Source: an uncultured Mucilaginibacter sp. | GTDB taxonomy: Bacteria > Bacteroidota > Bacteroidia > Sphingobacteriales > Sphingobacteriaceae | Direction: 5' to 3' | Length of the DNA: 64,000 bases | Assembly: GCA_913775265.1 (NCBI GenBank) | Contig: CAJYJH010000094.1 | Location: forward strand, 20,243 to 84,242 | Shown here: one piece after another, positions 2,953-60,336 of the stretch | Layout: each line of letters starts with the position of its first letter | Position numbering within the stretch: the first letter of the stretch is position 1 | Notes under the pieces: generated by a model | Told to the model about the DNA's origin: nothing | Database searches by the model: none | What the model saw: only the letters and a program-made list of their open reading frames with translations | Translations under genes and position numbers: made by a program

Positions 2953-3795
2953 ATGAACAAAAAAATCGACGCACATCAGCATTTCTGGCACTATAATCCG
3001 GTCCGCGACAGCTGGATCACTGAGGATATGCAATCTATCCGGCAAGATTTCCTTCCGGGAGATTTATTACCGTCTTTAGTATATAACGGCATTCATGGTT
3101 GTATTGCTGTACAGGCTGTGCAGGCCGAGGAAGAGAATGATTTTTTGCTGCAATTGGCTGCCGAAAATAATTTCATCAGGGGTATTGTAGGTTGGGTTGA
3201 CTTGCGGGCCGAAAATGTAGAAGACCGGTTGATCCATTACCGTCAGTATAAAAAGATGAAAGGTTTTCGTCATGTTTTACAGGGCGAGCCACAGCGTGAT
3301 CTGATGCTTACTGATGCATTTAAACATGGTATCGGTTTATTGAGCAAGTACAGTTTTACCTACGATATATTAATTTTTCCGGACCAGTTAAAATACGCTG
3401 CGCAGTTGGCTGCCGAATATCCTAACCAGTGTTTTGTGTTAGATCATATTGCCAAGCCGGATATTAAAAAGCAGAAGATGGAAGATTGGGCAACTGACAT
3501 CCAGGCGTTGGCAAAGTTCCAGAATGTAAACTGCAAGGTTTCGGGCATGGTTACCGAGGCCGACTGGCAAGCCTGGCAGGAAGAAGATTTTACACCTTAC
3601 CTGGATGTCGTGTTCGAAGCCTTCGGTCCTAAACGGGTGCTGTTTGGATCTGACTGGCCGGTTTGTATAGTAGCAGGCGGATACAACAAAATGCTGGAGA
3701 TCGTAAAAAATTACGTATCCAAGTATACTACCCAGGAGCAGGCTATGTTTTGGGGCAATAACGCCATCCGCATTTATCAGTTAGACGATAAATAA
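2953..3795 (+). CDS. Amidohydrolase family protein (COG3618; L-fuconolactonase / L-rhamnono-lactonase-like)
   Basis: IDAHQHFWHYNP metal-binding HxH motif, VLDHIAKPDI, and VLFGSDWPVC near the C-terminus. Confidence 0.82.
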   Translation: MNKKIDAHQHFWHYNPVRDSWITEDMQSIRQDFLPGDLLPSLVYNGIHGCIAVQAVQAEEENDFLLQLAAENNFIRGIVGWVDLRAENVEDRLIHYRQYKKMKGFRHVLQGEPQRDLMLTDAFKHGIGLLSKYSFTYDILIFPDQLKYAAQLAAEYPNQCFVLDHIAKPDIKKQKMEDWATDIQALAKFQNVNCKVSGMVTEADWQAWQEEDFTPYLDVVFEAFGPKRVLFGSDWPVCIVAGGYNKMLEIVKNYVSKYTTQEQAMFWGNNAIRIYQLDDK

Positions 3796-30214: not shown

Positions 30215-30223
30215 TTTAAAGTC

Positions 30224-32053: not shown

Positions 32054-32103
32054 TGCTGTTTCACAATATCCTTTAGTTTACATTGTTTAGTTAATTAGTT
32101 TGT

Positions 32104-32136
32104 AGGCTGTTTTACGAAAGTAAAGCAGCCTTTTTT
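32104..32136 (+). terminator. Strong Rho-independent terminator after susD
   Basis: AGGCTGTTTTAC-GAAA-GTAAAGCAGCCT-TTTTT: 12-bp stem with one G.U wobble, GNRA-type tetraloop and U-tract. Confidence 0.88.
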
Positions 32137-32426
32137 ATTAAAATTTGATTAGATAATTAAGTATTTCCCGGCCATTACAGGTGTGAGTGTAACAACTTCG
32201 CTATATACTATCTTATATAGCTTATAGCAAGTCTAATGACAATATTTTACATCACTAAGTTAAGATTGTACAATATTTTTGCGGTAACCCGTTGCATATT
32301 TGAATTAGAGAATCAAGGCAAACCTAACAATTCTGATTTTTCTGTAAGCCGTTTAAGGATCAACATAGTGTTGTGAACCGGTTGCGGTGTATACTACGGA
32401 ACTAACTGTATTGAGTTCAAACAATT

Positions 32427-34091: not shown

Positions 34092-34096
34092 AATCC

Positions 34097-37000
34097 ATGT
34101 CAGGCAAGTACAGACATACCGTAAGATTTTTGGTTGGTTGCATGTTAGGGTGCATGATACATGCGCCCGCATGGAGCCAAAACAAGCCTAAAGAAGCTAA
34201 ACCTCAGCCACCAGTTGCCGCCGATAAAAGCGGCAAACTGGTTTATAGCGTTGATGCCAAAGGCGACCGCATACCCGATTATTCGTACTGCGGATACAAA
34301 GCATCCGAGCAGCCTATTCCTTTGGTGCCCGTTAAAGTAACTGTGCCGGTTAGATCTGGCGATGCAACTTTACGCATTCAGGCGGCTTTAGACTATGTTT
34401 CGAAGTTGCCCTTAGACAAGAATGGCTTCCGGGGTGCTGTTCTGCTTAACAAGGGAACTTATCAGGTAGATGGGGCTTTGCATATCAAAGCCTCGGGCGT
34501 AGTGCTAAGAGGTAGCGGTATGGGTACCGATGGTACTGTGCTTTTAGGCGCAGGTACAGATCGCGAAACACTGATTCGTATTTTTGGTCAGGACGACAGG
34601 CAGATGGCTGATGCCGTAAAGATTAATGACGCTTACGTGCCTGTAAATGCCATGTCTTTTCATGTTGCAGGTGGCAGATTCAAAGTTGGCGACAATGTGC
34701 AGATCCGCCGGCCAAGCACCAAAGAGTGGATCAAGTTTTTAAAGACGGATCACTTTGGTGGTGGTATCACTACCTTAGGTTGGAAAGCCGGAGAACGCGA
34801 TATAATTTGGGATAGAAAAATTACTGCCATATCTGGTAACACGGTGACTATTGATGCGCCTATTACTACAGCATTAGACACTGCATTTGGCGGTGGATTG
34901 ATTAGTTCATACACCTGGACAGGTCGCATCGAAAATATAGGTATCGAAAATCTACGTTTATCATCTGCCTTTAACAGCGCAAACCCTAAAGATGAGGCTC
35001 ATCGCTGGATGGCTATCACTTTAGAGGACGTGCGCGATGCCTGGGTGAGGCAGGTTACCTTTGAGCATTTCGCGGGCTCGGCTGTTTTTGTGACCGAGAC
35101 GAGCAACCGTGTTACGGTGCAGGATTGCAAATCTTTAGCGCCGGTTTCCGAAATCGGTGGTTACCGTCGTAATACATTTTTAACTATGGGAGGCCAAACG
35201 CTATTTCAGCGTTTGTATGCCGAACGTGGCTACCATGATTTTGCCGTTGGCTATTGTGCACCCGGGCCCAATGCCTTTGTCCAGTGCCAGAACTGGCAGT
35301 CGTACAGCTTCAGTGGTCCGATTGACAGTTGGGCTTCGGGCGTGCTGTATGATGTGATGAATATTGACGGACAAGCGTTAAGTTTCATGAACCGCGGACA
35401 AGACGGACAAGGTGCTGGTTGGAACACAGCGAATAGCTTGTTTTGGAACTGTAGCGCGGCCCGCGTAGATTGCTACCAGCCACCCGGTGCTCAAAACTGG
35501 GCATTTGGTACTTGGGCACAATTTGCAGGCGATGGTTATTGGGCCGAATCAAACAACACCATCAGCCCGCGTAGTTTCTATTATGCCCAACTAAAAGACC
35601 GTTTAGGGCGCGATGTTGATGCACAGGCCGATATCTTAAAAGTTGAAACCGAGGCATCAAGCAGCCCAAGTGTGAAAGTGGCGACAGAACTGACCGCCAA
35701 TTCGGTTAATCCGGCTGTTACTATAAACGACTGGATCAGCCAGGTTCCGCAACGCAATCCGATTGCTGTAAGTACAAACGGAGCAAAAACTATTGATCAG
35801 ATTGGTTACAAGCAACCACTGGCACCAGCGATGGCGGGTGCAATGAAAGTACAGAATGGATGGTTGATTAGAGGTAATGCCGTATTGAGTGGCATGCGCC
35901 AGGATTCTCCGTGGTGGAATGGCTCAGTAGACCCGGTGTATCTGAAAAAGACAGCTAAACCTGCCGTTACCCGTTGGGTGCCTGGCCGTACAGGTACAGG
36001 TCTTACTGATGATTTAAACGACGTCATCAACTGGATGCAAAAAGACCACATTGTTGGTTTTGAGCAAAATTATGCTTTGTGGTATGAGCGCCGCCGCGAC
36101 GACCACGAACGTATCCGCCGTATGGATGGCGACGTTTGGGCTCCATTTTATGAATTGCCTTTTGCCCGCAGCGGACAGGATGTGGCCTGGGATGGTTTAA
36201 GCAGGTACGATTTAACTACATACAATACTTGGTATTGGCATCGCCTGAAACAATTTGCCGATTTGGCCGACCAAAAAGGTCTGGTACTGATTAATCAGAA
36301 TTATTTCCAACATAACATTATTGAAGCAGGCGCTCACTATGCTGATTTTCCTTGGCGTCCGGTAAACAATATTAACAACACCGGCTTCCCTGAACCGGTA
36401 CCTTTTGCGGGCGACAAACGGGTATTCATGTCGGAGCAGTTTTACGATGTAAACCATCCGGTACGCCGCAAATTGCATCAGGCTTTCATACGTCAAAATC
36501 TCGATAATTTTGCTGATAACAACAGTGTCATACAATTTATCGGAGCCGAATTTACCGGCCCGCTGCACTTTGTACAGTTTTGGGTAGAAACCATACAGCA
36601 GTGGGAAAAAGAGAAAGGTAAAAAGGAGCTTATCGGCTTAAGTACTACAAAAGACGTTCAGGACGCTATCCTGGCTGATCCGGCACGTGCAGCAGCTATT
36701 GATGTGATCGACATCCGCTACTGGCACTACCAGGCCGACGGCAAAGCCTACGCTCCGCAAGGCGGACTCAACTTGGCACCTCGCCAGCATGCACGTTTGC
36801 TAAAGCCAAAAGCTACCTCGTTTGAGCAGGTTTATCGTGCCGTGCATGAGTACCGCCAGAAATATCCCGAAAAGGCTGTTATCTACTCTGGAGATAATTT
36901 CGACAAGTTTGGTTGGGCGGCATTTATGGCCGGCGGTTCATTACCTAATCTTCCGGCAGGTGTAAGCAGCCAATTGTTGGCAGATGCTTCTTCTATGAAA

Positions 37001-37252
37001 GCAATCGAATTTAGCGGTACACCGAAAGATGAGTGGGCAATGGGTGATGCAGGGAAGGGATACGTTGTGTATAGTGAAAGCGGTAAGGTGTCTGCACTTG
37101 ATGTTCCGGCCAACACTAATTATCAATTAACCTGGATCGATCCTAAAACAGGTAACACATTGTCTGGTGTAAAAAAAATAAAGGGTAACCAGATCAGTAA
37201 TTTACAAAGCCCTGCCAATGGAGCAGTGGTGCTTTGGTTAAAACGTATCTAA
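34097..37252 (+). CDS. Large secreted protein: beta-helix (pectate-lyase-like) N-terminal half plus TIM-barrel-like and C-terminal beta-sandwich (DUF6298-like)
   Basis: N-half LRIQAALDYVSKLPLDKNGFRGAVLLNKGTYQVDGALHIKASGVVLRGSG; C-half QNYALWYERRRDDHERIRRMDGDVWAPFYELPFARS..., terminal YQLTWIDPKTGNTLSGVKKI. Confidence 0.7.
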   Translation: MSGKYRHTVRFLVGCMLGCMIHAPAWSQNKPKEAKPQPPVAADKSGKLVYSVDAKGDRIPDYSYCGYKASEQPIPLVPVKVTVPVRSGDATLRIQAALDYVSKLPLDKNGFRGAVLLNKGTYQVDGALHIKASGVVLRGSGMGTDGTVLLGAGTDRETLIRIFGQDDRQMADAVKINDAYVPVNAMSFHVAGGRFKVGDNVQIRRPSTKEWIKFLKTDHFGGGITTLGWKAGERDIIWDRKITAISGNTVTIDAPITTALDTAFGGGLISSYTWTGRIENIGIENLRLSSAFNSANPKDEAHRWMAITLEDVRDAWVRQVTFEHFAGSAVFVTETSNRVTVQDCKSLAPVSEIGGYRRNTFLTMGGQTLFQRLYAERGYHDFAVGYCAPGPNAFVQCQNWQSYSFSGPIDSWASGVLYDVMNIDGQALSFMNRGQDGQGAGWNTANSLFWNCSAARVDCYQPPGAQNWAFGTWAQFAGDGYWAESNNTISPRSFYYAQLKDRLGRDVDAQADILKVETEASSSPSVKVATELTANSVNPAVTINDWISQVPQRNPIAVSTNGAKTIDQIGYKQPLAPAMAGAMKVQNGWLIRGNAVLSGMRQDSPWWNGSVDPVYLKKTAKPAVTRWVPGRTGTGLTDDLNDVINWMQKDHIVGFEQNYALWYERRRDDHERIRRMDGDVWAPFYELPFARSGQDVAWDGLSRYDLTTYNTWYWHRLKQFADLADQKGLVLINQNYFQHNIIEAGAHYADFPWRPVNNINNTGFPEPVPFAGDKRVFMSEQFYDVNHPVRRKLHQAFIRQNLDNFADNNSVIQFIGAEFTGPLHFVQFWVETIQQWEKEKGKKELIGLSTTKDVQDAILADPARAAAIDVIDIRYWHYQADGKAYAPQGGLNLAPRQHARLLKPKATSFEQVYRAVHEYRQKYPEKAVIYSGDNFDKFGWAAFMAGGSLPNLPAGVSSQLLADASSMKAIEFSGTPKDEWAMGDAGKGYVVYSESGKVSALDVPANTNYQLTWIDPKTGNTLSGVKKIKGNQISNLQSPANGAVVLWLKRI

Positions 37253-37258
37253 GTTTTT

Positions 37259-38659
37259 ATGACGACAAAGAAAATCATCGGGATAGTATTGCTGGCAATC
37301 ATTGGTTTTGGCTTCGTGAAACCGGAACCTGCAGCTTTACCCGAAATTAAAGTGTCGCCCAACAAGCGGTATTTTACGGTAAACAATAACCAACCATTTT
37401 TTTGGTTGGGCGATACCGGTTGGTTGCTGTTTTCTAAACTGAAACGCGACGAAGCGGAAAAATACTTGGAGACCCGCCGTCAGCAAGGATTTAATGTAAT
37501 ACAGGTGATGGTGATTCATGACATCAAAGAAGTAAACGCTTATGGCGATTCGGCTTTGGTATCCAGCAACCTTGCTAAACCCAAAGTAACCACCGGCAAC
37601 AATCCGGAAAATGCTGCGGAATACGATTATTGGGATCATATTGACTGGATAGCAGATCGCGCTGCTGCAAAAGGCATTTATATGGCTTTAGTTCCGGTTT
37701 GGGGTTCGGTGGTAAAAGCGAAAGCAAGCCACATCAATGCCGAAAATGCCAAGGTGTATGCCAACTTTTTAGCCGAGCGTTATAAAAACAGGAGTAACAT
37801 TATTTGGATGAACGGTGGCGATATTTCGGGAAGCGAGTGCACAGACGTTTGGAACGCTATCGGCGCAACGCTACGTCAACAAAACCCGGAAAAACTCATC
37901 ACTTATCATCCCCGCGGCCGCACACAGTCATCTACATGGTTCCATAACGAAAACTGGTTAGATTTTAATTGTTTCCAGTCAGGTCACCGCACATACGCAC
38001 AGGATACTTCTAAAAAGGACTTAAAATACGGCGAGGATAACTGGAAATATGTGAATGTTGATTATAATAAAACACCAGTTAAACCAACTCTGGATGCTGA
38101 GCCATCTTACGAAAAAATACCTTACGGCTTACATGATGTGACGCTTCCGCGCTGGAAGGCTGCTGACGTTAGACGCTATGGTTACTGGTCGGTATTTGCA
38201 GGTGCTTGCGGTTATACTTATGGTAACAATGATGTAATGCAAATGCATAAGCCAAGTGATAAGATGAGCGCTTACGGCTCTAAGGAATATTGGTACCAGT
38301 CTATTAATGATCCGGGAGCCAAACAAATGGTGTATTTAAAGCAATTGATGCTTTCGCGCCCGTACTTTGAACGCGTACCCGACCAGTCTTTAGTAGCTGG
38401 CAAACAAGGTACCCGTTACAATTACTTACTGGCCACCCGCGGCGATAAGTACGCCTTTATTTACACTTACACCGGTAAAAACTTTGCGGTTAACACGGCC
38501 AAATTATCTGGCAGCAAGGTCAAAGCGTCGTGGTTCAACCCGCGTAACGGGCAGATTACAGGCGGCACGATAATGGCCAAATCCAAAACATTAAACTTTA
38601 ATCCACCAGGCAACCCGGCTAACGGTAATGATTGGGTGTTGATACTGGACTCGATATAG
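37259..38659 (+). CDS. GH140-like apiosidase (DUF4038 family with C-terminal collagen-binding-like domain)
   Basis: SPNKRYFTVNNNQPFFWLGDTGWLLFSKLKRDEAEKYLETRRQQGFNVIQVM; WLDFNCFQSGHR; AEPSYEKIPYGLHD; GACGYTYGNNDVMQM; C-terminal KASWFNPRNGQITGG. Confidence 0.87.
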   Translation: MTTKKIIGIVLLAIIGFGFVKPEPAALPEIKVSPNKRYFTVNNNQPFFWLGDTGWLLFSKLKRDEAEKYLETRRQQGFNVIQVMVIHDIKEVNAYGDSALVSSNLAKPKVTTGNNPENAAEYDYWDHIDWIADRAAAKGIYMALVPVWGSVVKAKASHINAENAKVYANFLAERYKNRSNIIWMNGGDISGSECTDVWNAIGATLRQQNPEKLITYHPRGRTQSSTWFHNENWLDFNCFQSGHRTYAQDTSKKDLKYGEDNWKYVNVDYNKTPVKPTLDAEPSYEKIPYGLHDVTLPRWKAADVRRYGYWSVFAGACGYTYGNNDVMQMHKPSDKMSAYGSKEYWYQSINDPGAKQMVYLKQLMLSRPYFERVPDQSLVAGKQGTRYNYLLATRGDKYAFIYTYTGKNFAVNTAKLSGSKVKASWFNPRNGQITGGTIMAKSKTLNFNPPGNPANGNDWVLILDSI

Positions 38660-38661
38660 TG

Positions 38662-39600
38662 ATGATGAAACAAAGGAGAGTCATATTAAGTGGTTTGCTC
38701 GGACTGGCGATGTTCATTACGTCATGTGCCTCCCGTAAAAGCATCTACATGTTTACATCGTTCAACGAACCGGCATCAGCAGGTCTGCGCCTGTTGTATA
38801 GTAAAGATGCGTACCATTGGACCGATTTGAACCACGTGTTTTTAAAACCCGAAGCCGGTACCGCTAACATTATGCGCGATCCATCATTGGTGCAAGGTCC
38901 GGATGGCACTTATCATTTGGTTTGGACCACAGGTTGGAAAGGCGACCAGGGATTTGGTTACGCCAGCTCTAAAGATTTGGTGCATTGGTCGGCACAGCAG
39001 CACATTAATATTATGGCCGGCGAGCCAACTACCGTTAATGTGTGGGCTCCTGAGCTGTTTTATGATGATGAGGCTAAACAATTTATCATTGTTTGGGCAT
39101 CAACTATTCCATACCGTTTCCCGAAGGGACAGGAGGATGAAGATAACAATCATCGTTTGTATTACACCACCACCACAGATTTTAAAACATTCAGCCCGGC
39201 CAAGTTATTTCTCGATCCGCAGTTTAGTGTGATTGATGCGCAGATTTTGAAAAGAGGACACCAGGATTACGTGCTGGTGATGAAGGATAATACCCGGCCT
39301 AACCGTAATATTTTAGTCGCGTTTGCCATTAGTCCGTTAGGTCCTTACAAAGACTACAGCAAGCGTTTTACCGAAATGTATTCAGAAGGACCTAACGCAA
39401 CCAAAGCTGGCAACGACTGGCTCATTTATTACGATTCGTACCGCTTAAAGCGTTACGGCGCCATGCGCACCACCGACTTTAAGACGTTCGCCGATGTATC
39501 AAACCAGGTAAGTGTGCCTGAGGGTCATAAACACGGAACTATATTTAAAGTAACGCCCAAAGCGTTAAAATATATCCAAAAAGAAATAGGGCAACAATAA
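38662..39600 (+). CDS. GH43-like glycoside hydrolase (lipoprotein)
   Basis: Lipobox-like FITSC; MRDPSLVQGPDGTYHLVWTTGWKGDQGFGYASSKDLVHWS; VWAPELFYDDEAKQFIIVWAS. Start MMKQRR at 38662 favoured over 38632. Confidence 0.82.
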   Translation: MMKQRRVILSGLLGLAMFITSCASRKSIYMFTSFNEPASAGLRLLYSKDAYHWTDLNHVFLKPEAGTANIMRDPSLVQGPDGTYHLVWTTGWKGDQGFGYASSKDLVHWSAQQHINIMAGEPTTVNVWAPELFYDDEAKQFIIVWASTIPYRFPKGQEDEDNNHRLYYTTTTDFKTFSPAKLFLDPQFSVIDAQILKRGHQDYVLVMKDNTRPNRNILVAFAISPLGPYKDYSKRFTEMYSEGPNATKAGNDWLIYYDSYRLKRYGAMRTTDFKTFADVSNQVSVPEGHKHGTIFKVTPKALKYIQKEIGQQ

Positions 39601-39620
39601 GCTTGCCTGCACTGCTATCT

Positions 39621-41474
39621 ATGAAGCTAACTGATAAAAAACATATTTTACCTTTTGTTGCTGCGCTGGCCTTATCGGCTTCTGTCTGGGCTCAGGATAC
39701 CGTGCGTTACACCGGTAACACCGTGTCTAATGTCGACTATCACCACGGGCAGCTAAGTTCTGTAGTTGGTGTACACAGCAAACAAATATTCCGCGCAAAC
39801 CGCGAGCACCCTGAGCAGGCCGAAGGTTTTGGTTTTACCTACAACCATGCGCCTATGCTGGCTTACTGGAACAATACTTTTTATGTAGAGTACTTGAGCG
39901 ACAAAGTAGGCGAGAGTATACCTCCGGGCCAAACGCTGGTCATTACCTCTAAAGATAATGGAAACACCTGGTCTAAGCCAACGGTGGTTTTCCCGCAGTA
40001 CAAAATTCCTGATGGCACTACTAAGCCGGGTCATGAAGGTGCGGCCAAGGACTTATATTCAGTAATGCATCAGCGTATGGGCTTCTATACGTCTAAATCT
40101 AAACGTTTATTTGTATTAGGTTTTTACGGTATTTGTTTAGATGAGCATGATGACCCAAATGATGGTTTGGGCATAGGCCGTGTCATCAGAGAGGTGCTGC
40201 CTAATGGTAAATACGGCCCTATCTACTTTATTCATTACAATCCTAAGTGGAACGAAAGCAATACATCTTATCCGTTTTATAAAAAGAGTAAAGACAAAGG
40301 CTTTGTGCAGGCTTGCGACGAGCTGATGGCTAACCCACTAATGATGATGCAGTGGGTGGAAGAAACAGATCGCAAAGACCCGTTAATCCCGCTGCATAAA
40401 GATTACAAGGCATTTAATTACTACCATCTGCCTGATGGTCGCGTGGTGGGTTTATGGAAAAATGCCTTAACGTCTATCAGCACCGATAACGGAAAAACCT
40501 GGCCCGCGAATGCCTCGCGTGCTCCTCGCGTGGTAAACAGCAACGCCAAAATATGGGGACAACGTACCTCTGATGGTAAGTATGCATTGGTATATAATCC
40601 TTCTGAGTTCCGTTGGCCGTTGGCTATTTCGGTTAGTGATAACGGTTTAGATTATAAAAACTTATTGTTGGTTAATGGCGAAATATCTACCATGCGTTAC
40701 GGCGGTAATTATAAATCGTACGGTCCGCAGTATGTGCGTGGCATCATCGAGGGCAACGGTACGCCGCCGGATGGCAAGCTATGGGTGACTTATAGCATGA
40801 ACAAAGAAGATATTTGGGTGTCATCTATTCCGGTGCCGGTTGCTGCCAAAGTTAAAGATCAGGCTAACGAAAACTTTGGTCAACTGCCTGAAGGTCATGA
40901 ACTGGATAAATGGAATATCTATAGTCCGCAATGGGCGCCTGTAAGTATTGACAAAGCACCCGACGGTACAAAAGCACTGACATTGAAAGACTGGGACCAG
41001 TTTGATTATGCGAAGGCCGAAAGGGTTGTTCCGGTATCTAAAAAATTAGCTGCGGAGTTTACCGTTGTTCCTGCTCAAAATAACACAGGCTTATTAAGTA
41101 TCGAGTTCCAGGATGAGAAAGGCCAGGCTGCCATCCGTCTTAATTTTGATTCGACCGGTACGTTTACTGCAAAGGCAGGCTACCGTTACAAAGGTTTCAT
41201 GAAATATGAGCCTAATAAGGCTTACGATATTAAACTGAAATTTAATGTAGATACCCGCTTTTATTACCTGAATGTAAACGGAAAAGATTTGTCGCCGTCG
41301 TTGTTTTTTCAACCGGTAAACAGTATCAGCAGGGTAGTGTTCCGCACCGGTGATGTACGTCGTTTCCCGGATGCCGATTCGCCAACCGATCAAAAATACG
41401 ATTTACCTAAAGCAGGCGAACCGGTTAAACAGGCCGCATTTTATATCAAGTCATTTACTACCAAACCATACTAA
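39621..41474 (+). CDS. Sialidase-like beta-propeller protein with C-terminal lectin-like (laminin-G-type) domain
   Basis: Asp-box-type SKDNGNTWSKP and STDNGKTWPAN; C-terminal beta-rich EFTVVPAQNNTGLLSIEFQDEKGQAAIRLNFDSTGTF. The second in-frame Met (39621) fits the signal peptide better. Confidence 0.7.
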   Translation: MKLTDKKHILPFVAALALSASVWAQDTVRYTGNTVSNVDYHHGQLSSVVGVHSKQIFRANREHPEQAEGFGFTYNHAPMLAYWNNTFYVEYLSDKVGESIPPGQTLVITSKDNGNTWSKPTVVFPQYKIPDGTTKPGHEGAAKDLYSVMHQRMGFYTSKSKRLFVLGFYGICLDEHDDPNDGLGIGRVIREVLPNGKYGPIYFIHYNPKWNESNTSYPFYKKSKDKGFVQACDELMANPLMMMQWVEETDRKDPLIPLHKDYKAFNYYHLPDGRVVGLWKNALTSISTDNGKTWPANASRAPRVVNSNAKIWGQRTSDGKYALVYNPSEFRWPLAISVSDNGLDYKNLLLVNGEISTMRYGGNYKSYGPQYVRGIIEGNGTPPDGKLWVTYSMNKEDIWVSSIPVPVAAKVKDQANENFGQLPEGHELDKWNIYSPQWAPVSIDKAPDGTKALTLKDWDQFDYAKAERVVPVSKKLAAEFTVVPAQNNTGLLSIEFQDEKGQAAIRLNFDSTGTFTAKAGYRYKGFMKYEPNKAYDIKLKFNVDTRFYYLNVNGKDLSPSLFFQPVNSISRVVFRTGDVRRFPDADSPTDQKYDLPKAGEPVKQAAFYIKSFTTKPY

Positions 41475-42913
41475 TGTTTAACTGCCGGATACCTCATTTA
41501 CTGATTGCTGCTGCGGTTAGCTTAAGCTTATCCGCTAAAAGTGATGCTGCTATTGTTCTGCCTAAAATATTGGGCAACGGCATGGTTTTACAGCGCAATC
41601 AGCCGGTTTCGGTTTGGGGCACGGCCAGTGTTGGCGAAAAGGTGACCGTTAAATTCGGCAAGCAAACAAAAACTACGGTTGCTGATACAGGCGGTAAATG
41701 GAAAGTATTTCTCAACCCGATGCCGGCTTCTGCAAAAGGTGAAAACCTGACCATTAGCGGGACTAATAAAATTGTGCTGAGCGATGTATTAGTGGGAGAG
41801 GTGTGGTTATGTTCTGGCCAGAGTAATATGCAGTACGAGATGCGCAAAAACAGCAAGGTAGCGCGTCCGGACACCAGCACGACCAATTCACCTATTGACG
41901 AATTGGACAGAGCCCACAATCCTAACATCCGCATATTTTTGGTAGACCGTAAAAGGCAAGTTAAACCGGACTCGACACATAGTGGCTGGAGCATTGCGCA
42001 GGATTCTGCTTTGCGTGCTTTCTCGGCCGCAGGCTACTTCTTTGCAAAAAAAATTCAGGCCGAATTAAAAGTACCAGTAGGTATCATCTCGTCTGCCGTA
42101 AGCGGTAGCCGTATTAAGCCCTGGATAGATGAAGCGGCATTTCAGCGCGAGCCTTACTTTAAAAATGTGAAGGTAGATGGCGACCCGGGTAAGTTTTATC
42201 ATCCCATGATTGAAACCGTGGCCCCTTATGCCCTTAAAGGTTTTTTATGGTATCAAGGCGAAAGTAATGTAGGCGAAACTACCAGCTACATCTATAAAAT
42301 GAAAGTGCTTATGGATAGCTGGAGAAAGGCTTGGGGTAATAAAAACCTGCCTTTTTACTACGTACAGCTGGCACCTTACCTCAACTCGCAGGATAAAAAG
42401 TTTACCAACGAAACCCTACCTGAGTTTAGGGAAGCACAAGAGCAATTATTAAAAATGCCGTACACCGGCATGATTGTAACTACCGACCTGAACGACAACG
42501 TAAAAAATATCCATCCTCCTTTTAAATGGGAGATCGGCCGCCGCCTGGCGCTCGTCGCTTTAGCTAAAACCTATGGGATGAAAGTTGAATATTCCGGCCC
42601 GTCATTTAAAGAGATGAAAGTAGAGCGCGATCAGGCTGTAATATCTTTCAATCATACCGGTGGCGGTTTGGTAAGCCATGATGGTAAACCATTAAACTAT
42701 TTTACCATTGCCGGGTCGGATAAAAAGTTTGTGCCCGCTAACGTGATGATCAAAGATAACCAACTGGTGCTGTCGGCACCATCGGTGCAAAAGCCGGTCG
42801 CTGTTCGCTTTGCATGGGACGAAGCCGCTCAACCTAATTTTTATAACGAAGCCGGTTTACCTGCGGTACCGTTCCGTACAGATAACCCTTTAAAATTCAA
42901 TCCGGTTAATTAA
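41474..42913 (+). CDS. Sialate O-acetylesterase-like (SASA/SGNH, CE20-like) esterase
   Basis: LPKILGNGMVLQRNQPVSVWGTASVGEKVTVKFGKQ; LVGEVWLCSGQSNMQYEM (SGNH block GQSNM); FLWYQGESNVG; overlaps the upstream stop (TAATG). Confidence 0.92.
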   Translation: MFNCRIPHLLIAAAVSLSLSAKSDAAIVLPKILGNGMVLQRNQPVSVWGTASVGEKVTVKFGKQTKTTVADTGGKWKVFLNPMPASAKGENLTISGTNKIVLSDVLVGEVWLCSGQSNMQYEMRKNSKVARPDTSTTNSPIDELDRAHNPNIRIFLVDRKRQVKPDSTHSGWSIAQDSALRAFSAAGYFFAKKIQAELKVPVGIISSAVSGSRIKPWIDEAAFQREPYFKNVKVDGDPGKFYHPMIETVAPYALKGFLWYQGESNVGETTSYIYKMKVLMDSWRKAWGNKNLPFYYVQLAPYLNSQDKKFTNETLPEFREAQEQLLKMPYTGMIVTTDLNDNVKNIHPPFKWEIGRRLALVALAKTYGMKVEYSGPSFKEMKVERDQAVISFNHTGGGLVSHDGKPLNYFTIAGSDKKFVPANVMIKDNQLVLSAPSVQKPVAVRFAWDEAAQPNFYNEAGLPAVPFRTDNPLKFNPVN

Positions 42914-51863: not shown

Positions 51864-52778
51864 ATGAATAACAGTCAGTCATCCCGACGTAGGTTTCTCG
51901 CTCAAACCGCTATTGCAACCACAGGTGTGGCGCTGTCGCAGAACAGTTGGGCGGCTTTTTTTGCCAGTGCTGCAAAATCTCAGCGTTATAAAGTAGCGGT
52001 GGTTGATTTAATGATATTAAAACGGCAGAAGCTGGGTGCATTTCAGTTAAGCAAAGAAGTCGGGGCTGACGGTGTTGAGGTTGATATGGGTGGTTTGGGT
52101 AACCGCGAAACATTTGACAGTCAGTTAGCCAATCCCGAAATAAGAAAACAGTTTTTAGATAAAGCGAAAGAGTTCAATTTAGACATATGCTCCTTGGGCA
52201 TGACCGGCTTCTTCGCGCAATCATTCGCTAAACGCGATGGGGTAGATCGCATGGTGCAAGATTGTATTGATACCATGAAAGCCATGAACGTTAAAGTGGC
52301 GTTTTTGCCATTAGGCGTTAATAGCGATTTGTCTAAAAATCCGGAACTGCGACCTGTGGTGATTGAACGGCTAAAGATGATTGCGCCGAAAGCCGAGCAG
52401 GCCGGTGTAGTAATTGGTATCGAAACCTCGTTAAGTGCTACCGACGAAGCCAAACTGCTCGACGAGGTGGGCTCAAAGGCTATTAAAAGCTATTTCAATT
52501 TTGCTAACGCATTAGATAATGGTCGTGATGTAAGTGAAGAGTTGAAGATTTTAGGTAAAAAGCGTATATGCCAGATCCATTGCAGCAACACCGATGGCGT
52601 TTGGCTACAGAATGATCCGGAAATCGATCTGAAAAAAGTTAAAAAGACATTAGATAAAATGAAGTGGGAGGGCTGGCTGGTCATCGAGCGTTCCCGCGAT
52701 GTAAAAGATCCGCGCAACGTGAAGTGGAATTTTAGTGCTAATACCGCCTATGTCAAGTCGGTGTTCCAAAACGACTAA
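51864..52778 (+). CDS. Sugar phosphate isomerase/epimerase family (xylose-isomerase-like TIM barrel), Tat-type signal
   Basis: SSRRRFLAQTAIATTGVALS twin-arginine motif; GADGVEVDMGGLGNRETFD, VIGIETSLSATDEAKLLDEVGSKAIKSYFNFANAL. Confidence 0.85.
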   Translation: MNNSQSSRRRFLAQTAIATTGVALSQNSWAAFFASAAKSQRYKVAVVDLMILKRQKLGAFQLSKEVGADGVEVDMGGLGNRETFDSQLANPEIRKQFLDKAKEFNLDICSLGMTGFFAQSFAKRDGVDRMVQDCIDTMKAMNVKVAFLPLGVNSDLSKNPELRPVVIERLKMIAPKAEQAGVVIGIETSLSATDEAKLLDEVGSKAIKSYFNFANALDNGRDVSEELKILGKKRICQIHCSNTDGVWLQNDPEIDLKKVKKTLDKMKWEGWLVIERSRDVKDPRNVKWNFSANTAYVKSVFQND

Positions 52779-52837: not shown

Positions 52838-55399
52838 ATGAAATCCGCTTTTAAATATATACTCTTTGCATTATGGATGACTACTGTATCCGTAAATGTT
52901 AAAGCAGCGGATATCTACGTTTCAACATCTGGCAGCGATAGTAATCTCGGCACACAGCAACAGCCCAAAGCTACACTAAACGCTGCGTTGCGCCAGGCGC
53001 GTGAATTGCGCAGGCTTAATGACGCAAGTATAAAAGAAGGGATACACATCATTGTCTCGGGCGGTAACTATCAACTGAACGAACCCGTATTTATCCGTCC
53101 GGAAGATTCTGGAACGGCACAATCGCCAACCTGGATACAAGCGGCGGCCAATCAAACTCCTGTTTTAAGCGGTGGTATAAATGTGACCGGGTGGAAAAAA
53201 TTAAGTACACACCTTGCAGGCTTACCGGCTAACGCTAAAGGCAAAGTTTGGGTAGCTAACCTGCCTTATTATCAGGGCTCCAGACTTCAGTTCAGGCAAT
53301 TGTGGGTAAATGGTCGAAAGGCTGTTCGTGCCCGTGAGAGTGATAACAATGATCAAATGAGCCGAATTGTGTCGGTTGATAAAGCCAAGCAGGAAATGTG
53401 GATTCCAACCCCATCGGTAAAGCTGCCAGCAAAAGCAGGGCAGATGGAGTTGGTGATTCACCAAATGTGGGCTATTGCCAATCTGAGGGTTAAAAGTATC
53501 GCTACCGAGGGTAACAAAACCAAACTGACATTTCAGCAGCCAGAAAGCCGCATCCAGTTCGAGCATCCCTGGCCCGAAGCCGTGATTGATAAAAACAATC
53601 AGAAAAACGGAAACTCCGCCTTTTACCTGAACAACGCGATTGAATTTTTAAATCAACCGGGCGAGTGGTTTGCCGATCAGGAAGCCGGAAAACTCTATTA
53701 TTGGCCGCGCGCCAGTGAAAATATGGTGCAAGCGCAGGTTACAGTACCGGCTTTGCAAACACTGTTACACATTACCGGCACGGCCGACAGGCAGGTAAGT
53801 TATGTATATTTGAAGGGCATTAATTTTGAGTATGCCACCTGGTTGCGCCCATCTCAGCAAGGGCATGTACCGCATCAGGCAGGTATGTACATGGTGGATG
53901 CTTACAAGCTGAAAGTTGCAGGTACGCCCGAAAAAGCCGGTCTGGAAAACCAGGCATGGGTAGGCCGCCCCAATGCAGCGGTCGAAGTTGCCTACGCACA
54001 TCACACAGGTTTTGGACAATGCCGTTTTGAGCACATGGCCTCAACCGGCTTAGATTATCAGCGCGGTACACATGATGATGCCATAAAAGGCAACATTTTT
54101 AAAGATATTGGCGGAACGGCTATTCAGGTAGGTACTTACTCGGATGAAGCGATAGAGGCCCATTTACCTTACAACCCTTCTGATCCTCGCGAGGTTTGCA
54201 CTAACGAGTTGGTTAGCAACAACCTGATTACGGACGTAACCAATGAAGATTGGGGCTGCGTTGGTATTGGCGCCGGGTATGTCAAAAATATCAACATTGA
54301 ACATAACGATATAAGCGAAGTGTCTTACTCCGGCATTAGCATGGGCTGGGGTTGGACCAAGCTCAAAAATGCCATGAGCAACAATCGCATCTATGGCAAT
54401 AAAATTCATCGTTATGGCAAGCATCTCTATGACGTGTCGGGTATCTATACGCTGTCTGCTCAGCCCGGCTCGGTCATCGAAAACAACTGCATAGATAGCG
54501 TATACAAAGTTCCTTACGCGCACGATATGCATCATTGGTTTTATCTGTATTGTGATGAAGGCTCGTCAGGCTTTACGGTACGTAACAACTGGTGCCCGGC
54601 AGATAAATTTTTGCAGAACGCCAATGGTCCCGACAATCATTGGACTAATAACGGACCACAGGTCAGCCAGGAAGTAAAGCAAAACGCGGGTTTACAAAAA
54701 GAATATTTAACGTCTTTGAAGTATATCGCTCCGGCAGATAAGCGCGAAGCCATCAATTACGTAGGCTATGACATTAAAGCCGATAAGCCGCAGGTAATTG
54801 AGGTAATTGCAGAGCAGGGACAGACGCCGGATGTAGCCAAAGTGAAAGACTTATGCATGCGCAACGGCATTCCGGTTTCGGCAATTTACCAGTGGCAAAA
54901 CAGATTGACCATATTCGGCAACATTCCAAATGCCGAGCGCATTGCGCAACAGCTTAAAAGTATGTTTAGCAGCGCTGAGGTAAAAAGTTACACTACACCT
55001 TTTTATACTTTTAATGCTCAACAGCACTGCGGTGCTGGGACAACCGTAGCTAGAGAATGGGATAATATTGTGTTGACAGCCAATTTGGTAAGTGACGTTA
55101 AAAAGCAACAGGAATATCTCGATTACCACGCTACCCAGTTTCAAAAATGGCCGGAAGTAGCAAAAGGATTTTGCAACGCCAGTTTTCAGCAACTGTTAGT
55201 TTACAAAAACGGCAGGCAATTAATGCTCATCATCAGTATAACCAAAGGCGAAAGCCTGGATAATCTCAATCCCAAAACCTCAGAAAACAACCCGCGGGTA
55301 GACGACTGGAACACCATCATGAAGCAATACCAGGAAGGCGTAAGCGGTACTAAACCGGGCGAGGTTTGGGTGTTTATGCAACCGGTAAAACAATCTTAA
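52838..55399 (+). CDS. Right-handed beta-helix protein (GH141-like) with C-terminal L-rhamnose-mutarotase-like domain
   Basis: ADIYVSTSGSDSNLGTQQQPKATLNAALRQARE...; IFKDIGGTAIQVGTYSDE; C-terminal KKQQEYLDYHATQFQKWPEVAKGFCNASFQQLLVYKNGRQLMLIISI...NPRVDDWNTIMKQYQEGVSGTKPGEVWVFMQPV. Confidence 0.78.
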   Translation: MKSAFKYILFALWMTTVSVNVKAADIYVSTSGSDSNLGTQQQPKATLNAALRQARELRRLNDASIKEGIHIIVSGGNYQLNEPVFIRPEDSGTAQSPTWIQAAANQTPVLSGGINVTGWKKLSTHLAGLPANAKGKVWVANLPYYQGSRLQFRQLWVNGRKAVRARESDNNDQMSRIVSVDKAKQEMWIPTPSVKLPAKAGQMELVIHQMWAIANLRVKSIATEGNKTKLTFQQPESRIQFEHPWPEAVIDKNNQKNGNSAFYLNNAIEFLNQPGEWFADQEAGKLYYWPRASENMVQAQVTVPALQTLLHITGTADRQVSYVYLKGINFEYATWLRPSQQGHVPHQAGMYMVDAYKLKVAGTPEKAGLENQAWVGRPNAAVEVAYAHHTGFGQCRFEHMASTGLDYQRGTHDDAIKGNIFKDIGGTAIQVGTYSDEAIEAHLPYNPSDPREVCTNELVSNNLITDVTNEDWGCVGIGAGYVKNINIEHNDISEVSYSGISMGWGWTKLKNAMSNNRIYGNKIHRYGKHLYDVSGIYTLSAQPGSVIENNCIDSVYKVPYAHDMHHWFYLYCDEGSSGFTVRNNWCPADKFLQNANGPDNHWTNNGPQVSQEVKQNAGLQKEYLTSLKYIAPADKREAINYVGYDIKADKPQVIEVIAEQGQTPDVAKVKDLCMRNGIPVSAIYQWQNRLTIFGNIPNAERIAQQLKSMFSSAEVKSYTTPFYTFNAQQHCGAGTTVAREWDNIVLTANLVSDVKKQQEYLDYHATQFQKWPEVAKGFCNASFQQLLVYKNGRQLMLIISITKGESLDNLNPKTSENNPRVDDWNTIMKQYQEGVSGTKPGEVWVFMQPVKQS

Positions 55400-55435: not shown

Positions 55436-56539
55436 ATGTTAAAATTAGGCATCTTAGGATTAGGCGAAGGCCGCAGCACCATGTCGGCAGCGCTGCAAAG
55501 CACCAAAATAGAACTGGCCGTGGTATGCGATCGCAACCTGGACATGTGTAAGCGCCGCGCCAAGGAGTTTGGCTTCGATAATTATACTACCGACTATCAG
55601 GATATGCTTAACAATCCTGAGATAGATATTATAGCCATCTACACGCCCGACCATCTGCACGCCGATCACATCAAACAGGCACTGTTAGCCGGTAAACATG
55701 TGGTTTGTACTAAGCCGTTGATCGACGACCTGAGTCAGGCTAACGAGCTGATAAAAATTTCGGCCCAAACCGGTAAAAAGGTGTTTGTAGGTCAAAGCTC
55801 ACGCTTTTTTGAACCGGCCAAACGTCAGCAAAAAGATTTTAAGGAAGGTTTGATAGGAGAACTGATCACCATTGAATCGCATTACCATGCTGATCATCGC
55901 TGGTTTTTGGAAAAAACCTGGGCTTTAGAGGATGCCTTTAAATGGTTATACGGCGGCTTAAGTCACCCGGTAGATTTTATCCGTTGGTACTTGCCCAACA
56001 TTGAAGAAGTAATGGGTTATGGCATGATTAGCAGCAACGGTAAAACTGCCGGACTGAAGAATCATGATACCATGCACTTTATATTTAAAGCTACTGATGG
56101 TCGCATAGCCCGGGTAAGCGGAGCCTACACCGGACCCACACAGCCCACCAAACGCGACAGCGGTATGACGGTTATTTTGCGCGGTACTGAAGGTGCATCG
56201 CAAGCTGATTACCATGAATTACGTTACTCGGTAACCGACAACACCGGCGAAGAAAGGATTGTACATTGGGGCGACAGCACCATCAAATATTATTTCCGGT
56301 TTGAAGGCCAAAGCCACCACGCCGGTGAGTATCAAAATTACTTAGAGTATTTTGCTGATTGCCTCGAAAGCGGCGAAACTGCCTACCCGGACTTAAAAGA
56401 AGGCATCGGCACTATTGCCTTATTACAAGCTATGGACCGTTCGCTGCAAACCGGCATGCCTGTAAAGATTGCAGACATCTTAGCTGAGTTTGATATCAAT
56501 GCCGATGCTTTAAATACCGACACCAATACCCATGGGTAA
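55436..56539 (+). CDS. Gfo/Idh/MocA-family oxidoreductase
   Basis: KLGILGLGEGRSTMSAALQ Rossmann motif; NNPEIDIIAIYTPDHLHADHIKQALLAGKHVVCTKPL. Confidence 0.93.
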   Translation: MLKLGILGLGEGRSTMSAALQSTKIELAVVCDRNLDMCKRRAKEFGFDNYTTDYQDMLNNPEIDIIAIYTPDHLHADHIKQALLAGKHVVCTKPLIDDLSQANELIKISAQTGKKVFVGQSSRFFEPAKRQQKDFKEGLIGELITIESHYHADHRWFLEKTWALEDAFKWLYGGLSHPVDFIRWYLPNIEEVMGYGMISSNGKTAGLKNHDTMHFIFKATDGRIARVSGAYTGPTQPTKRDSGMTVILRGTEGASQADYHELRYSVTDNTGEERIVHWGDSTIKYYFRFEGQSHHAGEYQNYLEYFADCLESGETAYPDLKEGIGTIALLQAMDRSLQTGMPVKIADILAEFDINADALNTDTNTHG

Positions 56540-58124
56540 TATTTTACAACATTTAACCACTTTAGATTATGCTATTGTAGTCGCCTACGTAGCTATTCTT
56601 CTTTTTTTAGGAATCCAGGCTTCGTTAAAGAATCGCAAACGCGGCGATGAAGAGACCCTGTTTCTTGGCGACCGATCGCTTAAATGGCCAAGCATTGGCT
56701 TTAACATGTGGGGCACCAACGTAGGGCCTTCTATGTTAGTGGCGTTTGCCGGGGTAGGCTTTAGCACAGGTATTGTAGCGGTCAATTTCGACTGGTATGC
56801 ATTTCTATTTTTGATGTTGCTGGCATTGGTTTTTGCACCGCGTTACCTGGCAGCTAAAGTGAATACCATGCCCGAGTTTATGGGCCAGCGTTACGGCGAA
56901 TCTACCCGTACTATCTTAGCCTGGTATGCTTTAATTAAAATACAAATCTCTTGGCTGTCGTTAGGCTTATACGCCGGCGGTACGTTGGTTAGGCAAATAT
57001 TGGGCATCCCGATGTGGGAATCGGTCATCGTACTGGTAGCGTTTGCGGGTTTATTTACCTACATGGGTGGGTTAACGGCCATTGCTAAAGTAAACGTATT
57101 TCAAATGCTTTTGCTCATCGGCGTTTCCATCATGCTTACCGTGCTCGGCGTTAAACGTGCAGGCGGGTTGTCATATGTTTACAATCATGTACCAAGCCAT
57201 TTCTGGAATTTGTTTCACCCGGCTTCCGATCCTAACTACCCATGGTATGCTATTATGCTGGGATATCCCGTGGCAGCCGTAGCTTTCTTTTGTACCGATC
57301 AGTCAATGGTGCAGTCGGTGTTGGGTGCCAAGAACCTGGAGCAGGGGCAGTTGGGCGTTAACTTTATTGGCTGGCTTAAAATATTGTCCTTACCGCTGTT
57401 CATCTTCACCGGTATTTTGTGCCATATCATTTTTCCCGATTTAAAGGACGAAAACCTGGCGTACATGACGATGGTGACTAACCTGTTTCCTGCCGGTTTA
57501 AATGGGTTGGTTATTGTAGTATTGATTGCCGTTTTGGTAGGTACTATTGGTTCGTCGCTTAACTCTTTGAGTACTGTGTTTACGATGGATATCTATGCGG
57601 AGCGGATCAATAAGCAAGCTACTAACAAACAGCTAATCAGCGTAGGCCGATTGTCGATCATCGTTGGCTGTATTTTATCGGTAGGTGTGGCTATCGCCCT
57701 TGATAGCATTAAGGGACTTAAGTTTTTTGATGTTTTTCAGTCGATATTAGGTTTTATTGCACCGCCTTTGTCGGTGGTGTTTTTGCTGACCGTGTTCTGG
57801 AAACGTACCACGCGCTCGGCCGTAAACACTATTCTGTCGGCTGGTTCAGCTTTTAGTCTTTTGGTAGGCATTCTTTATTTGTGGGTTTTCCCTAAAGATG
57901 TATACCATTTCTGGCCGCATTACTTGATGCTGTCTTTCTACGTATTCGCGTTCCTGCTTATCATTGGTTTACTGGTTTCACTGCTCGACCGTAACCCTCA
58001 GGTTTACATTGCCAGTTTGCAAGAGGAAAGAGATATGCCAAAAACATCATCCAAGGTTAAAATTGCCTGGGTGTTATTAACTTTAGTGATGATTGGCCTT
58101 TACATCATTTTTAACGGACATTAA
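56532..58124 (+). CDS. Sodium:solute symporter (SSS family), second copy
   Basis: LDYAIVVAYVAILLFLGIQASLKNRKRGDEETLFLGDRSLKWPSIGFNMWGTNVGPSMLVAFAG; LVGTIGSSLNSLSTVFTMDIYAERI; overlaps the upstream gene by 8 bp. Confidence 0.93.
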   Translation: MGNILQHLTTLDYAIVVAYVAILLFLGIQASLKNRKRGDEETLFLGDRSLKWPSIGFNMWGTNVGPSMLVAFAGVGFSTGIVAVNFDWYAFLFLMLLALVFAPRYLAAKVNTMPEFMGQRYGESTRTILAWYALIKIQISWLSLGLYAGGTLVRQILGIPMWESVIVLVAFAGLFTYMGGLTAIAKVNVFQMLLLIGVSIMLTVLGVKRAGGLSYVYNHVPSHFWNLFHPASDPNYPWYAIMLGYPVAAVAFFCTDQSMVQSVLGAKNLEQGQLGVNFIGWLKILSLPLFIFTGILCHIIFPDLKDENLAYMTMVTNLFPAGLNGLVIVVLIAVLVGTIGSSLNSLSTVFTMDIYAERINKQATNKQLISVGRLSIIVGCILSVGVAIALDSIKGLKFFDVFQSILGFIAPPLSVVFLLTVFWKRTTRSAVNTILSAGSAFSLLVGILYLWVFPKDVYHFWPHYLMLSFYVFAFLLIIGLLVSLLDRNPQVYIASLQEERDMPKTSSKVKIAWVLLTLVMIGLYIIFNGH

Positions 58125-58128
58125 CCTG

Positions 58129-60336
58129 ATGAAGAAACTGATACCTCAATTTTTATATTCCTCAAAAGCAGCACAAAAATTCGCATTGTGCTTTGCCATG
58201 ATTATAGGCGGGGCTGCCGAAATTAAAGCCCAAACCAAAGCTACCTGGATATGGTATCCCGGCGATTACGAAATTTGGCTGAGCAACAAAATGCAAAACC
58301 GTCGTACCGAACGTGGTTCCTTTTTTCCGCCGTTTTGGAAGCTGGATAGCCATTATGTGCTGATTGATTTTCATAAAGACTATAACCTGAGTTCGGCCGA
58401 AGAGGCGGAGATTGCCGTTGAAGGACAGTATAACCTTAAGATAGATGGCAAAGCTGCTACCGGCTATCCTAAAACTATTACGCTACCTGCAGGTAAGCAC
58501 CGCATCAGCCTCAAAGTATATAACCAGGGCAGTGTACCGGCTGTGTTTGTAAAAAGTCCGCATGTGGTATCAGATACCTCTTGGCTGGTAACTTTTGAAG
58601 ATAAAGAGTGGATTGATGCTTCGGGTAAAACCTCGGATGTATCTGCTACCCAATATGTACCCGCCGGTGCCTGGAATTTCAATGCGGCAACATCAACGCC
58701 ATCACAATTCCGCTTACCAACAGTGCCGCAAAAAGCCGTAAGTCAGGATAAAAAAACCAAGTCGATTCTGGTTGATTTTGGTAAGGAAACCTTTGGTTAT
58801 GTAAAACTGCACGGTGTTAAAGGTAAGGGGAAAGTAACCTTATACTATGGCGAATCGAAAGAAGAGGCTTTAGATACCAAAGGCGGCGAATTGCTGGATA
58901 TTGTAGATGCAGATCAGCAGCACTCCGGTGATATTACTTTAGACGGTTCCCGCGCGTTCAGGTACGTTAACGTGCAGTATGACGGCGATGTGAGTGTCAA
59001 CGATGTGTCGATGCTGTACGAATACTCGCCGGTGGAGCAGCGCGGTAGTTTCCGTTGTTCTGATGAGCAGATTAATAAAATATGGGATGTTGCTGCTTAT
59101 ACCATGCAGCTAAATACCCGCGAGTTTTTTATTGACGGTATTAAGCGCGACCGCTGGGTGTGGTCTGGAGATGCGGCACAAAGTTACCTGATGAACTACT
59201 ATCTGTATTTTGATTCGCCTACTGTAAAACGCACTATCAGTGCCCTGCGTGGTAAAGATCCGGTAACCAGCCATATCAATACCATTATGGATTATACGTT
59301 TTACTGGTTTATCAGCATTTACGATTACTACCAGCATAGCGGCGATAAGGCTTTCATCAAGCAATCATATCCTGGTATGCAAAGCATGATGAACTATTGC
59401 TTATCGCGCCGTAACACCGACGGATTAATGCAAGGGCTTTCGGGCGACTGGGTGTTTATTGATTGGGCCGATGGCCTGAGTAAACAAGGCGAGGTAAGTT
59501 TTGAACAGATGCTGCTTTGCCGCAGCCTGGAAAGCATGGCCTTGTGCGCCAATATTATGAATGATACTAAAGGTGCCGAAAAATACAGTGCCTTAGCTAA
59601 AGACTTAAAGGCTAAACTATTTAATTACTATTGGAATGCGCAGAAGCATGCCTTGGTACATAGCTGCGTTGATGGTAAGCCTACAGACAACGTAACCCGA
59701 TACGCTAACATGTTTGGTATCTTCTTCAACTATTTTACCGAAGCACAAAAGCAGGACGTCAAGAAATACGTGTTGATGAATGATCAGGTTCAAAAAATCA
59801 CCACACCTTACATGCGTTTTTACGAGCTGGAAGCGTTGTGCGCTATGGGCGAGCAATATTATGTGTTGAAGCAGATGAAAGATTATTGGGGAGGCATGCT
59901 TAACCTGGGCGCTACATCTTTTTGGGAAGAGTACAACCCCGACAAGAAGGGGGCAGAGCATTATGCTATGTACGGTCGTCCGTTTGGTAAAAGCTTATGT
60001 CATGCCTGGGGTGCCAGTCCAATTTACTTATTAGGAAAATATTATTTAGGCGTAAAACCTACTGCACCTGGTTACCAAACCTACGTCATCGAGCCTCAAT
60101 TAGGCGGACTAAAATGGATGGAAGGTGCTATACCAACACCTAAGGGCGATATTAAAGTGCATTGTACCACCAACAAAATTAATTTAAGCAGTGCTACAGG
60201 TACTGGGGTACTCCGCATTAAGAGCAAAAGCAAACCTGTTTGCAAAGGCGAAACGCTGAAATCATTGGGGAACAATACTTACGAACTATCAATACAAAAA
60301 GATAAAGCTTACGCAGTACAATACACTGCTATATAA
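58129..60336 (+). CDS. GH78-like alpha-L-rhamnosidase (shorter subtype)
   Basis: Signal peptide; FRYVNVQYDGDVSVNDVSMLYEYSPVEQRGSFRCSDEQINKIWDVAAYTMQLNTREFFIDGIKRDRWVWSGDAAQ; SLCHAWGASPIYLLGKYYLGVKP. Internal start at 58129 favoured over 58093. Confidence 0.82.
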   Translation: MKKLIPQFLYSSKAAQKFALCFAMIIGGAAEIKAQTKATWIWYPGDYEIWLSNKMQNRRTERGSFFPPFWKLDSHYVLIDFHKDYNLSSAEEAEIAVEGQYNLKIDGKAATGYPKTITLPAGKHRISLKVYNQGSVPAVFVKSPHVVSDTSWLVTFEDKEWIDASGKTSDVSATQYVPAGAWNFNAATSTPSQFRLPTVPQKAVSQDKKTKSILVDFGKETFGYVKLHGVKGKGKVTLYYGESKEEALDTKGGELLDIVDADQQHSGDITLDGSRAFRYVNVQYDGDVSVNDVSMLYEYSPVEQRGSFRCSDEQINKIWDVAAYTMQLNTREFFIDGIKRDRWVWSGDAAQSYLMNYYLYFDSPTVKRTISALRGKDPVTSHINTIMDYTFYWFISIYDYYQHSGDKAFIKQSYPGMQSMMNYCLSRRNTDGLMQGLSGDWVFIDWADGLSKQGEVSFEQMLLCRSLESMALCANIMNDTKGAEKYSALAKDLKAKLFNYYWNAQKHALVHSCVDGKPTDNVTRYANMFGIFFNYFTEAQKQDVKKYVLMNDQVQKITTPYMRFYELEALCAMGEQYYVLKQMKDYWGGMLNLGATSFWEEYNPDKKGAEHYAMYGRPFGKSLCHAWGASPIYLLGKYYLGVKPTAPGYQTYVIEPQLGGLKWMEGAIPTPKGDIKVHCTTNKINLSSATGTGVLRIKSKSKPVCKGETLKSLGNNTYELSIQKDKAYAVQYTAI

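Follow-up and report, generated by a model that had tools for sequence, protein, structure and literature searches.

The window, as we call the whole 64,000-nucleotide stretch of Mucilaginibacter DNA that was analysed, is judged from its gene content to be a utilisation locus of the rhamnogalacturonan-II (RG-II) pectin type. Besides the genes listed in Table 1, it carries GH95, several GH78 and GH2 genes, the start of a GH106 gene, and esterases. An open reading frame occupying exactly positions 52838-55399 of the plus strand, with an ATG start and a single stop, encodes an 853-residue protein in which a GH141 domain is joined to a two-lobed mutarotase-like module. Genes for an oxidoreductase and a symporter follow.

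Several other products of the window are of note. PDB entry 4dlf, which the amidohydrolase resembles, is one that we take to belong to the L-fucono-1,5-lactonase group; an L-fuconolactonase study is cited as reference 13 in PMC11199699. A 539-residue protein encoded at 24419-26038 has only sub-threshold similarity to L-fucose isomerase domains and might represent a divergent isomerase acting on one of the RG-II sugars. The BT_1020-like beta-propeller with a sialidase-like CBM at 39603-41474 has 623 residues, and this length together with its Pfam content suggests a single propeller enzyme; BT_1020 itself presumably has a second catalytic domain. Two DUF3826 proteins, encoded at 26064-26756 and 48499-49230, have strong Pfam scores. 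In many loci, as in the window, a TIM-barrel protein with a Tat-like leader is encoded just upstream of the fusion.

Table 1. Positions of the fusion protein, its parts and neighbouring features in the window.
Feature	Residues	Position (strand)	Evidence or remarks
Amidohydrolase like PDB 4dlf, context for L-fucose use		2953..3795 (+)	4dlf E 1.2e-55
RG-II-type genes		26897..42913 (+)	SusC/SusD pair, pectate-lyase-like, apiosidase, BT_1020-like propeller, SASA esterase (Pfam scan)
Xylose-isomerase-like TIM-barrel protein, putatively exported		51864..52778 (+)	PF01261 (AP_endonuc_2) E 7.8e-25; Tat-like leader SRRRFLAQTA
Signal peptide MKSAFKYILFALWMTTVSVNVKA	1-23	52838..52906 (+)	Basic N-terminus, hydrophobic core, AxA-like end (sequence)
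GH141 beta-helix domain	24-624	52907..54709 (+)	5mqp match; insertion domain at 135-291
Linker	625-647	54710..54778 (+)	Poorly conserved: 30-83% identity; pLDDT <50 at 642-649
N-terminal lobe of module	648-735	54779..55042 (+)	beta-alpha-beta-beta-alpha-beta in model; invariant Glu655, Trp686, Cys731
Mutarotase domain	740-853	55055..55396 (+)	PF05336; Tyr760, His764, Trp771, Pro772, Trp824, Glu842-x-Trp844 conserved; Cys779 invariant
Gfo/Idh/MocA oxidoreductase		55436..56539 (+)	PF01408 E 6.9e-23; no signal peptide
Sodium:solute (SSF) symporter, candidate importer of released sugar		56532..58124 (+)	PF00474 E 1.1e-48
GH78-like protein		58093..60336 (+)	PF21209/PF17389

The GH141 half and its linker

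A first-pass annotation of this DNA read the first ~600 residues as a GH141-like beta-helix and the protein as secreted, and both readings hold. Over residues 22-624 the protein matches BT_1002, an RG-II enzyme of solved structure (PDB 5mqp), with an E value of 2.2e-212, the full-length model superposes on 5mqp with a TM score of 0.91 (Foldseek), and the insertion domain is PF21231 (E 1.6e-67, Pfam scan). Moreover, Asp532 and Asp573 align with the catalytic Asp pair of BT1002 and are invariant in 27 fusion proteins. The critical residues of that enzyme are D523 and D564 (PMC10154630); they were mapped on the assumption, deduced from the alignment, that the numbering of the paper and that of the chain differ by 5. 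The first 624 residues are thus a GH141 enzyme of the BT_1002 type, predicted from the signal peptide to be exported, and this half would free a fucose-ended product from RG-II. Over this length it shares its sequence, fold, Asp pair and RG-II setting with BT_1002, the founding GH141 member from Bacteroides thetaiotaomicron. However, BT_1002 ends at about residue 620 and has no mutarotase module, and Bacteroidaceae-like loci are without the linked oxidoreductase and symporter.

The full-length AlphaFold model (pLDDT 80.9, pTM 0.72) is weak in the linker at residues 642-649 and contains no defined docking of the GH141 half and the module. Rigid docking of the two enzyme halves is therefore unsupported, and co-location is a safer reading than direct channelling.

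The two-lobed module and its relatives

The remainder of the protein is a module of ~205 residues that forms two tandem ferredoxin-like halves in the AlphaFold model. When residues 648-853 were modelled by AlphaFold2 with 20 homologues, two consecutive beta-alpha-beta-beta-alpha-beta lobes were obtained with a mean pLDDT of 91.2 and a pTM of 0.87. The first-pass annotation had assigned the tail to the L-rhamnose mutarotase family and the preceding segment to a second, degenerate ferredoxin-like half. Its family assignment stands for the second lobe, where residues 755-850 match Pfam rhaM (PF05336) with 38.8 bits against a curated cut-off of 23.4. This family is matched by all 51 representative modules, and the match is confined to the last ~115 residues of the protein. 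In structure, the second lobe resembles the Acidovorax L-fucose mutarotase 7byu (Foldseek TM 0.78 on the target, 18% identity), so that the ferredoxin-like fold anticipated from the sequence was recovered both in the prediction and in the structural search.

For the first lobe the proposal is borne out in fold but not in sequence. No recurring Pfam family was found in it among the 51 representative modules, and when it was compared with 40 canonical mutarotases by hhalign the score of 14.4 fell inside the range of column-shuffled controls (top 19.8). A degenerate mutarotase copy is consequently not demonstrable at the sequence level, and the motif GI....IY...NRL is no more than suggestive of mutarotase kinship. 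In Foldseek the module aligns over its whole length with further two-lobe proteins; among them are HmoB and LmHde, which we take to be single-chain versions of a two-subunit barrel. The confident two-lobed model and these matches are compatible with an intramolecular pseudo-dimer, as had been proposed, but the whole-length TM scores are moderate, at about 0.3-0.55 overall and 0.4-0.55 for the pseudo-dimeric barrels, and the sequence kinship of the first lobe to mutarotases is not significant.

The two lobes differ in how strongly they are constrained. Among fused Mucilaginibacter proteins, identity is 54-84% in the first lobe and 75-96% in the second. Likewise, in a close genome pair dN/dS is ~0.08 for the first lobe versus ~0.015 for the mutarotase lobe, values that are rough because dS is high; dN in the mutarotase half is 0.018, indicating strong purifying selection. 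Neither Cys731 nor Cys779 varies in the module, yet both are unconserved in canonical relatives, and a disulfide is therefore predicted in the exported protein.

Residues equivalent to Tyr760, His764, Trp771, Pro772 and Trp824 are near-universal among the module, FucM-like Bacteroidota proteins, FucM (7byu), RhaM (1x8d), 2qlx and 6hhn. All four mutarotase positions Tyr760, His764, Trp771 and Trp824 are kept, an outcome that favours the earlier assignment. Tyr760 and His764 correspond to Tyr18 and His22 of E. coli RhaM, presumably its active-site pair. In contrast, Glu842-x-Trp844 is common to the module, FucM (7byu) and the FucM-like group and is absent from rhamnose mutarotases. Profile comparison by hhalign gave a probability of 99.4% (E 9e-22) for the module versus the FucM-like group, and 3.5%, with no significant match, versus a RhaM profile built from only four sequences. 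RhaM (1x8d), RhaU (2qlx) and 6hhn hence share PF05336 and the core residues with the module but neither a significant profile match nor the Glu-x-Trp motif, and the motif and the FucM-like profile speak against a rhamnose-type mutarotase.

The genome from which the window derives also carries a canonical FucM-like gene adjoining fucP, which encodes an L-fucose symporter (TIGR00885, 384 bits). This gene, the FucM-like profile match and the Glu-x-Trp motif together favour a fucose-type substrate. The tail is thus nearer the L-fucose type than the L-rhamnose type named in the first-pass annotation, which suits the fucosidase half. By these comparisons the module is closest to the L-fucose (FucM) type, and we infer both mutarotase activity and fucose specificity, although a larger fucose-ended product may be preferred. 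FucM itself is short, has a single domain and belongs to an intracellular pathway. It shares with the last 115 residues of the fusion its fold (7byu and 7byw; TM 0.78) and the Tyr, His, Trp and Glu-x-Trp residues, and the L-fucose pathway that contains it is described in PMC11199699. The module differs from FucM in its predicted export, its extra N-terminal lobe, a short insert at Gln767-Phe768 and the two invariant cysteines. It also forms a fully supported clade of its own, with its own invariant residues.

Distribution of the fusion and its linked genes

A contig scan of genomes yielded 278 relatives of the module, the best 80 of which were kept for locus counts. Among these 80 loci, 51 have the module fused to GH141, 23 have an unfused module gene close to GH141, and 6 are without GH141 in the fetched stretch, although in 5 of these 6 a strong GH141 is found elsewhere in the genome. 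The sources of the modules in these 80 loci include Mucilaginibacter, Pedobacter, Hymenobacter, Spirosoma, Flavobacterium and several Chitinophagaceae. Recurrence of the same fusion in 51 of the 80 public loci, across many genera, excludes an assembly or frameshift artefact. One contig labelled Williamsia (Actinomycetota; locus L135) carries a Bacteroidota-type fusion with the same neighbours and is probably mislabelled or a mixed metagenome bin. A signal-like or lipoprotein N-terminus is present in all 43 stand-alone module reading frames examined, a set that includes some duplicates from genomes fetched twice.

An even draw of 396 Bacteroidota genomes contains BT_1002-type GH141 in 18, and in 15 of these it is fused to the module. 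Such a fusion had been expected to be unusual, an expectation that neither this fraction nor that among the best 80 of 278 loci supports. The other three GH141 genomes, which have no module elsewhere in the genome either, comprise two of one Bacteroidaceae-like family, so labelled from a BT_1002-like locus, and one labelled Hymenobacter-like from its place in the tree. Outside the Bacteroidaceae, BT_1002-type GH141 is commonly found in the fused form, and the gut-type (Bacteroidaceae-like) GH141 is without the module. Among the papers searched, none reports a GH141-mutarotase fusion, and the arrangement is a real, conserved and apparently undescribed combination of two known families.

The history of the fusion reads differently in its two parts. 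In the module tree, a branch with support 95 sets the fused proteins apart, and no more than three state changes are required. In the GH141 tree, rooted on the Bacteroidaceae-like family without the module, separate genes are basal, four state changes must be assumed, and the fused clade of the window sits among separate Mucilaginibacter genes. Because the trees conflict, single or repeated fusion, splitting and tail exchange stay alternatives.

Two neighbours that the first-pass annotation had overlooked accompany the module closely. Among the best 80 of 278 loci, the oxidoreductase gene lies at most three genes after the module in 71, and both it and the symporter gene do so in 69. An oxidoreductase ortholog, defined by at least 70% identity, is present in exactly the 15 module genomes and in no other of the 396; it is absent from all three GH141 genomes without the module. 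Co-occurrence of module and oxidoreductase gives Fisher p values, uncorrected for kinship, of 2e-27 overall and 0.0012 within GH141 genomes. In loci L224 to L226, which have no module-oxidoreductase-symporter block, a GH78-like gene directly follows GH141. One of these, the Hymenobacter-like L226 (genome G261), has GH141 without module, oxidoreductase or symporter and represents a second co-absence besides the Bacteroidaceae-like genomes. Where Hymenobacter has the module, the gene order is GH141, GH78-like, module, oxidoreductase, symporter, so that it is the last two genes, not GH141, that the module accompanies.

A deletion in genome G052 (L055:9539-10140) delineates the same block. There the module is broken off after FEKWP and is followed by the last symporter codons (ending LYIIFNGH, stop); GH141 is intact, and one deletion accounts for the loss of the oxidoreductase, of almost the whole symporter and of the greater part of the mutarotase lobe. 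In the same locus, the upstream GH78 gene is split into two open reading frames, 657-2591 and 2585-3409. In-frame TGA codons noticed in the oxidoreductase genes of one genus proved to be ordinary terminal stops. Co-inheritance, co-absence and the G052 deletion suggest a common target for module, importer and oxidoreductase, and nothing else hints at function as strongly. Similarity of the oxidoreductase to DgpA and to BT_2158/BT_2159-type glycoside and disaccharide 3-dehydrogenases is weak and sub-threshold; it would fit oxidative attack on a glycoside and proves nothing.

Possible roles of the module

We slightly favour the view that the protein is an exported bifunctional RG-II enzyme, a fucosidase with a single-chain L-fucose-type mutarotase that exchanges anomers for the symporter and oxidoreductase. 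In side chain A of RG-II, the GH141 half would cut the alpha-L-fucose linkage and free fucose or, as for BT1002, the disaccharide 2-O-methyl-xylosyl-fucose. In the tail, the C-terminal lobe would hold the active site and the N-terminal lobe would replace the second subunit. Outside the cytoplasm, the tail would speed the exchange of ring forms in the fucose that is freed with its reducing end. The SSF symporter would receive the form it needs, on which the cytosolic MocA oxidoreductase would eventually act. Packing as a pseudo-dimer and transfer of the sugar to the importer are both inferred, and co-inheritance with the importer and oxidoreductase points to a previously undescribed uptake step.

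Precedents exist for single parts of this scheme. NanM, a periplasmic N-acetylneuraminate mutarotase, aids use of this sugar once it is freed, the importer accepting one anomer (PMC8141875). As proposed for the module, it acts outside the cytoplasm, but it belongs to an unrelated family, serves a different sugar and is not fused to a glycosidase. Mutarotases are also encoded with, or fused to, an enzyme of the same sugar pathway, as with HsSQM, a sulfoquinovose mutarotase encoded with its glycosidase, and yeast Gal10 (PMC5902678). These two differ from the module in being of the aldose-1-epimerase family; HsSQM is a separate protein whose proposed target is the intracellular pool, and in Gal10 the mutarotase domain is fused to an epimerase.

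Some observations weigh against the proposed mechanism. Hymenobacter has another gene between GH141 and the module, Bacteroidaceae-like GH141 loci do without the module, and the two enzymes are not docked in any defined way in the full-length model. Spontaneous mutarotation also occurs, so that a benefit outside the cell is not self-evident. A more specific version, to which we give a fairly low probability, is that module, oxidoreductase and symporter form a three-part route for GH141-freed 2-O-methyl-xylosyl-fucose, in which the exported mutarotase would present the right anomer, the symporter would import the disaccharide and the oxidoreductase would begin its oxidative cleavage. According to 2017 work on B. 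thetaiotaomicron, this disaccharide reportedly holds the one RG-II linkage that the bacterium leaves uncut. If true, the three-part route would explain why all three genes are jointly present or absent while GH141 remains.

It is rather unlikely that the module is instead a catalytically active mutarotase whose substrate is a different RG-II sugar (L-rhamnose, L-galactose or 2-O-methyl-fucose, for example), with shared regulation as its only link to GH141. Such a role would suit the several rhamnosidase-like genes of the locus, the ring configuration that L-galactose shares with L-fucose, and the separate clade of the module; however, the module is repeatedly fused to, or directly beside, a fucosidase family, and for rhamnose the profile and Glu-x-Trp comparisons argue otherwise. 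Another explanation sees the module as a sugar-binding domain for the substrate or product of GH141 that has ceased to be an enzyme, which is harder to reconcile with retention of every residue common to characterised mutarotases. Attachment by a flexible linker, as in a carbohydrate-binding module, would agree with this explanation, and strict conservation could stem from binding. Yet a stand-alone exported form exists, the Hymenobacter module lies with oxidoreductase and symporter and not with GH141, and presence of the module follows the oxidoreductase rather than GH141, all of which make a purely binding role quite improbable.

We consider it very unlikely that the module opens the sugar ring for a dehydrogenase or isomerase rather than balancing anomers. 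YhcH, which provides open Neu5Ac to its aldolase, is a precedent (PMC8141875), and co-inheritance with a MocA oxidoreductase would be in keeping with such a role. The module is exported, however, whereas a signal peptide is missing from the oxidoreductase; an opened sugar would thus need to persist through import.

Anomer exchange by an exported fucose-type mutarotase thus remains our preferred reading. To our knowledge, the mutarotases of the PF05336 family all serve intracellular sugar pathways, and the interest of the arrangement lies in an exported fucose-type subfamily strictly co-inherited with an importer and an oxidoreductase, more than in the fusion itself. The proposal makes testable the fate of the fucose-ended product in free-living species; gut-type Bacteroidaceae loci seem to be without these genes. 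If the activity is confirmed, extracytoplasmic anomer exchange would be a selected step in glycan uptake, and functions would be given to two orphan genes in the RG-II loci of many soil and water Bacteroidota.
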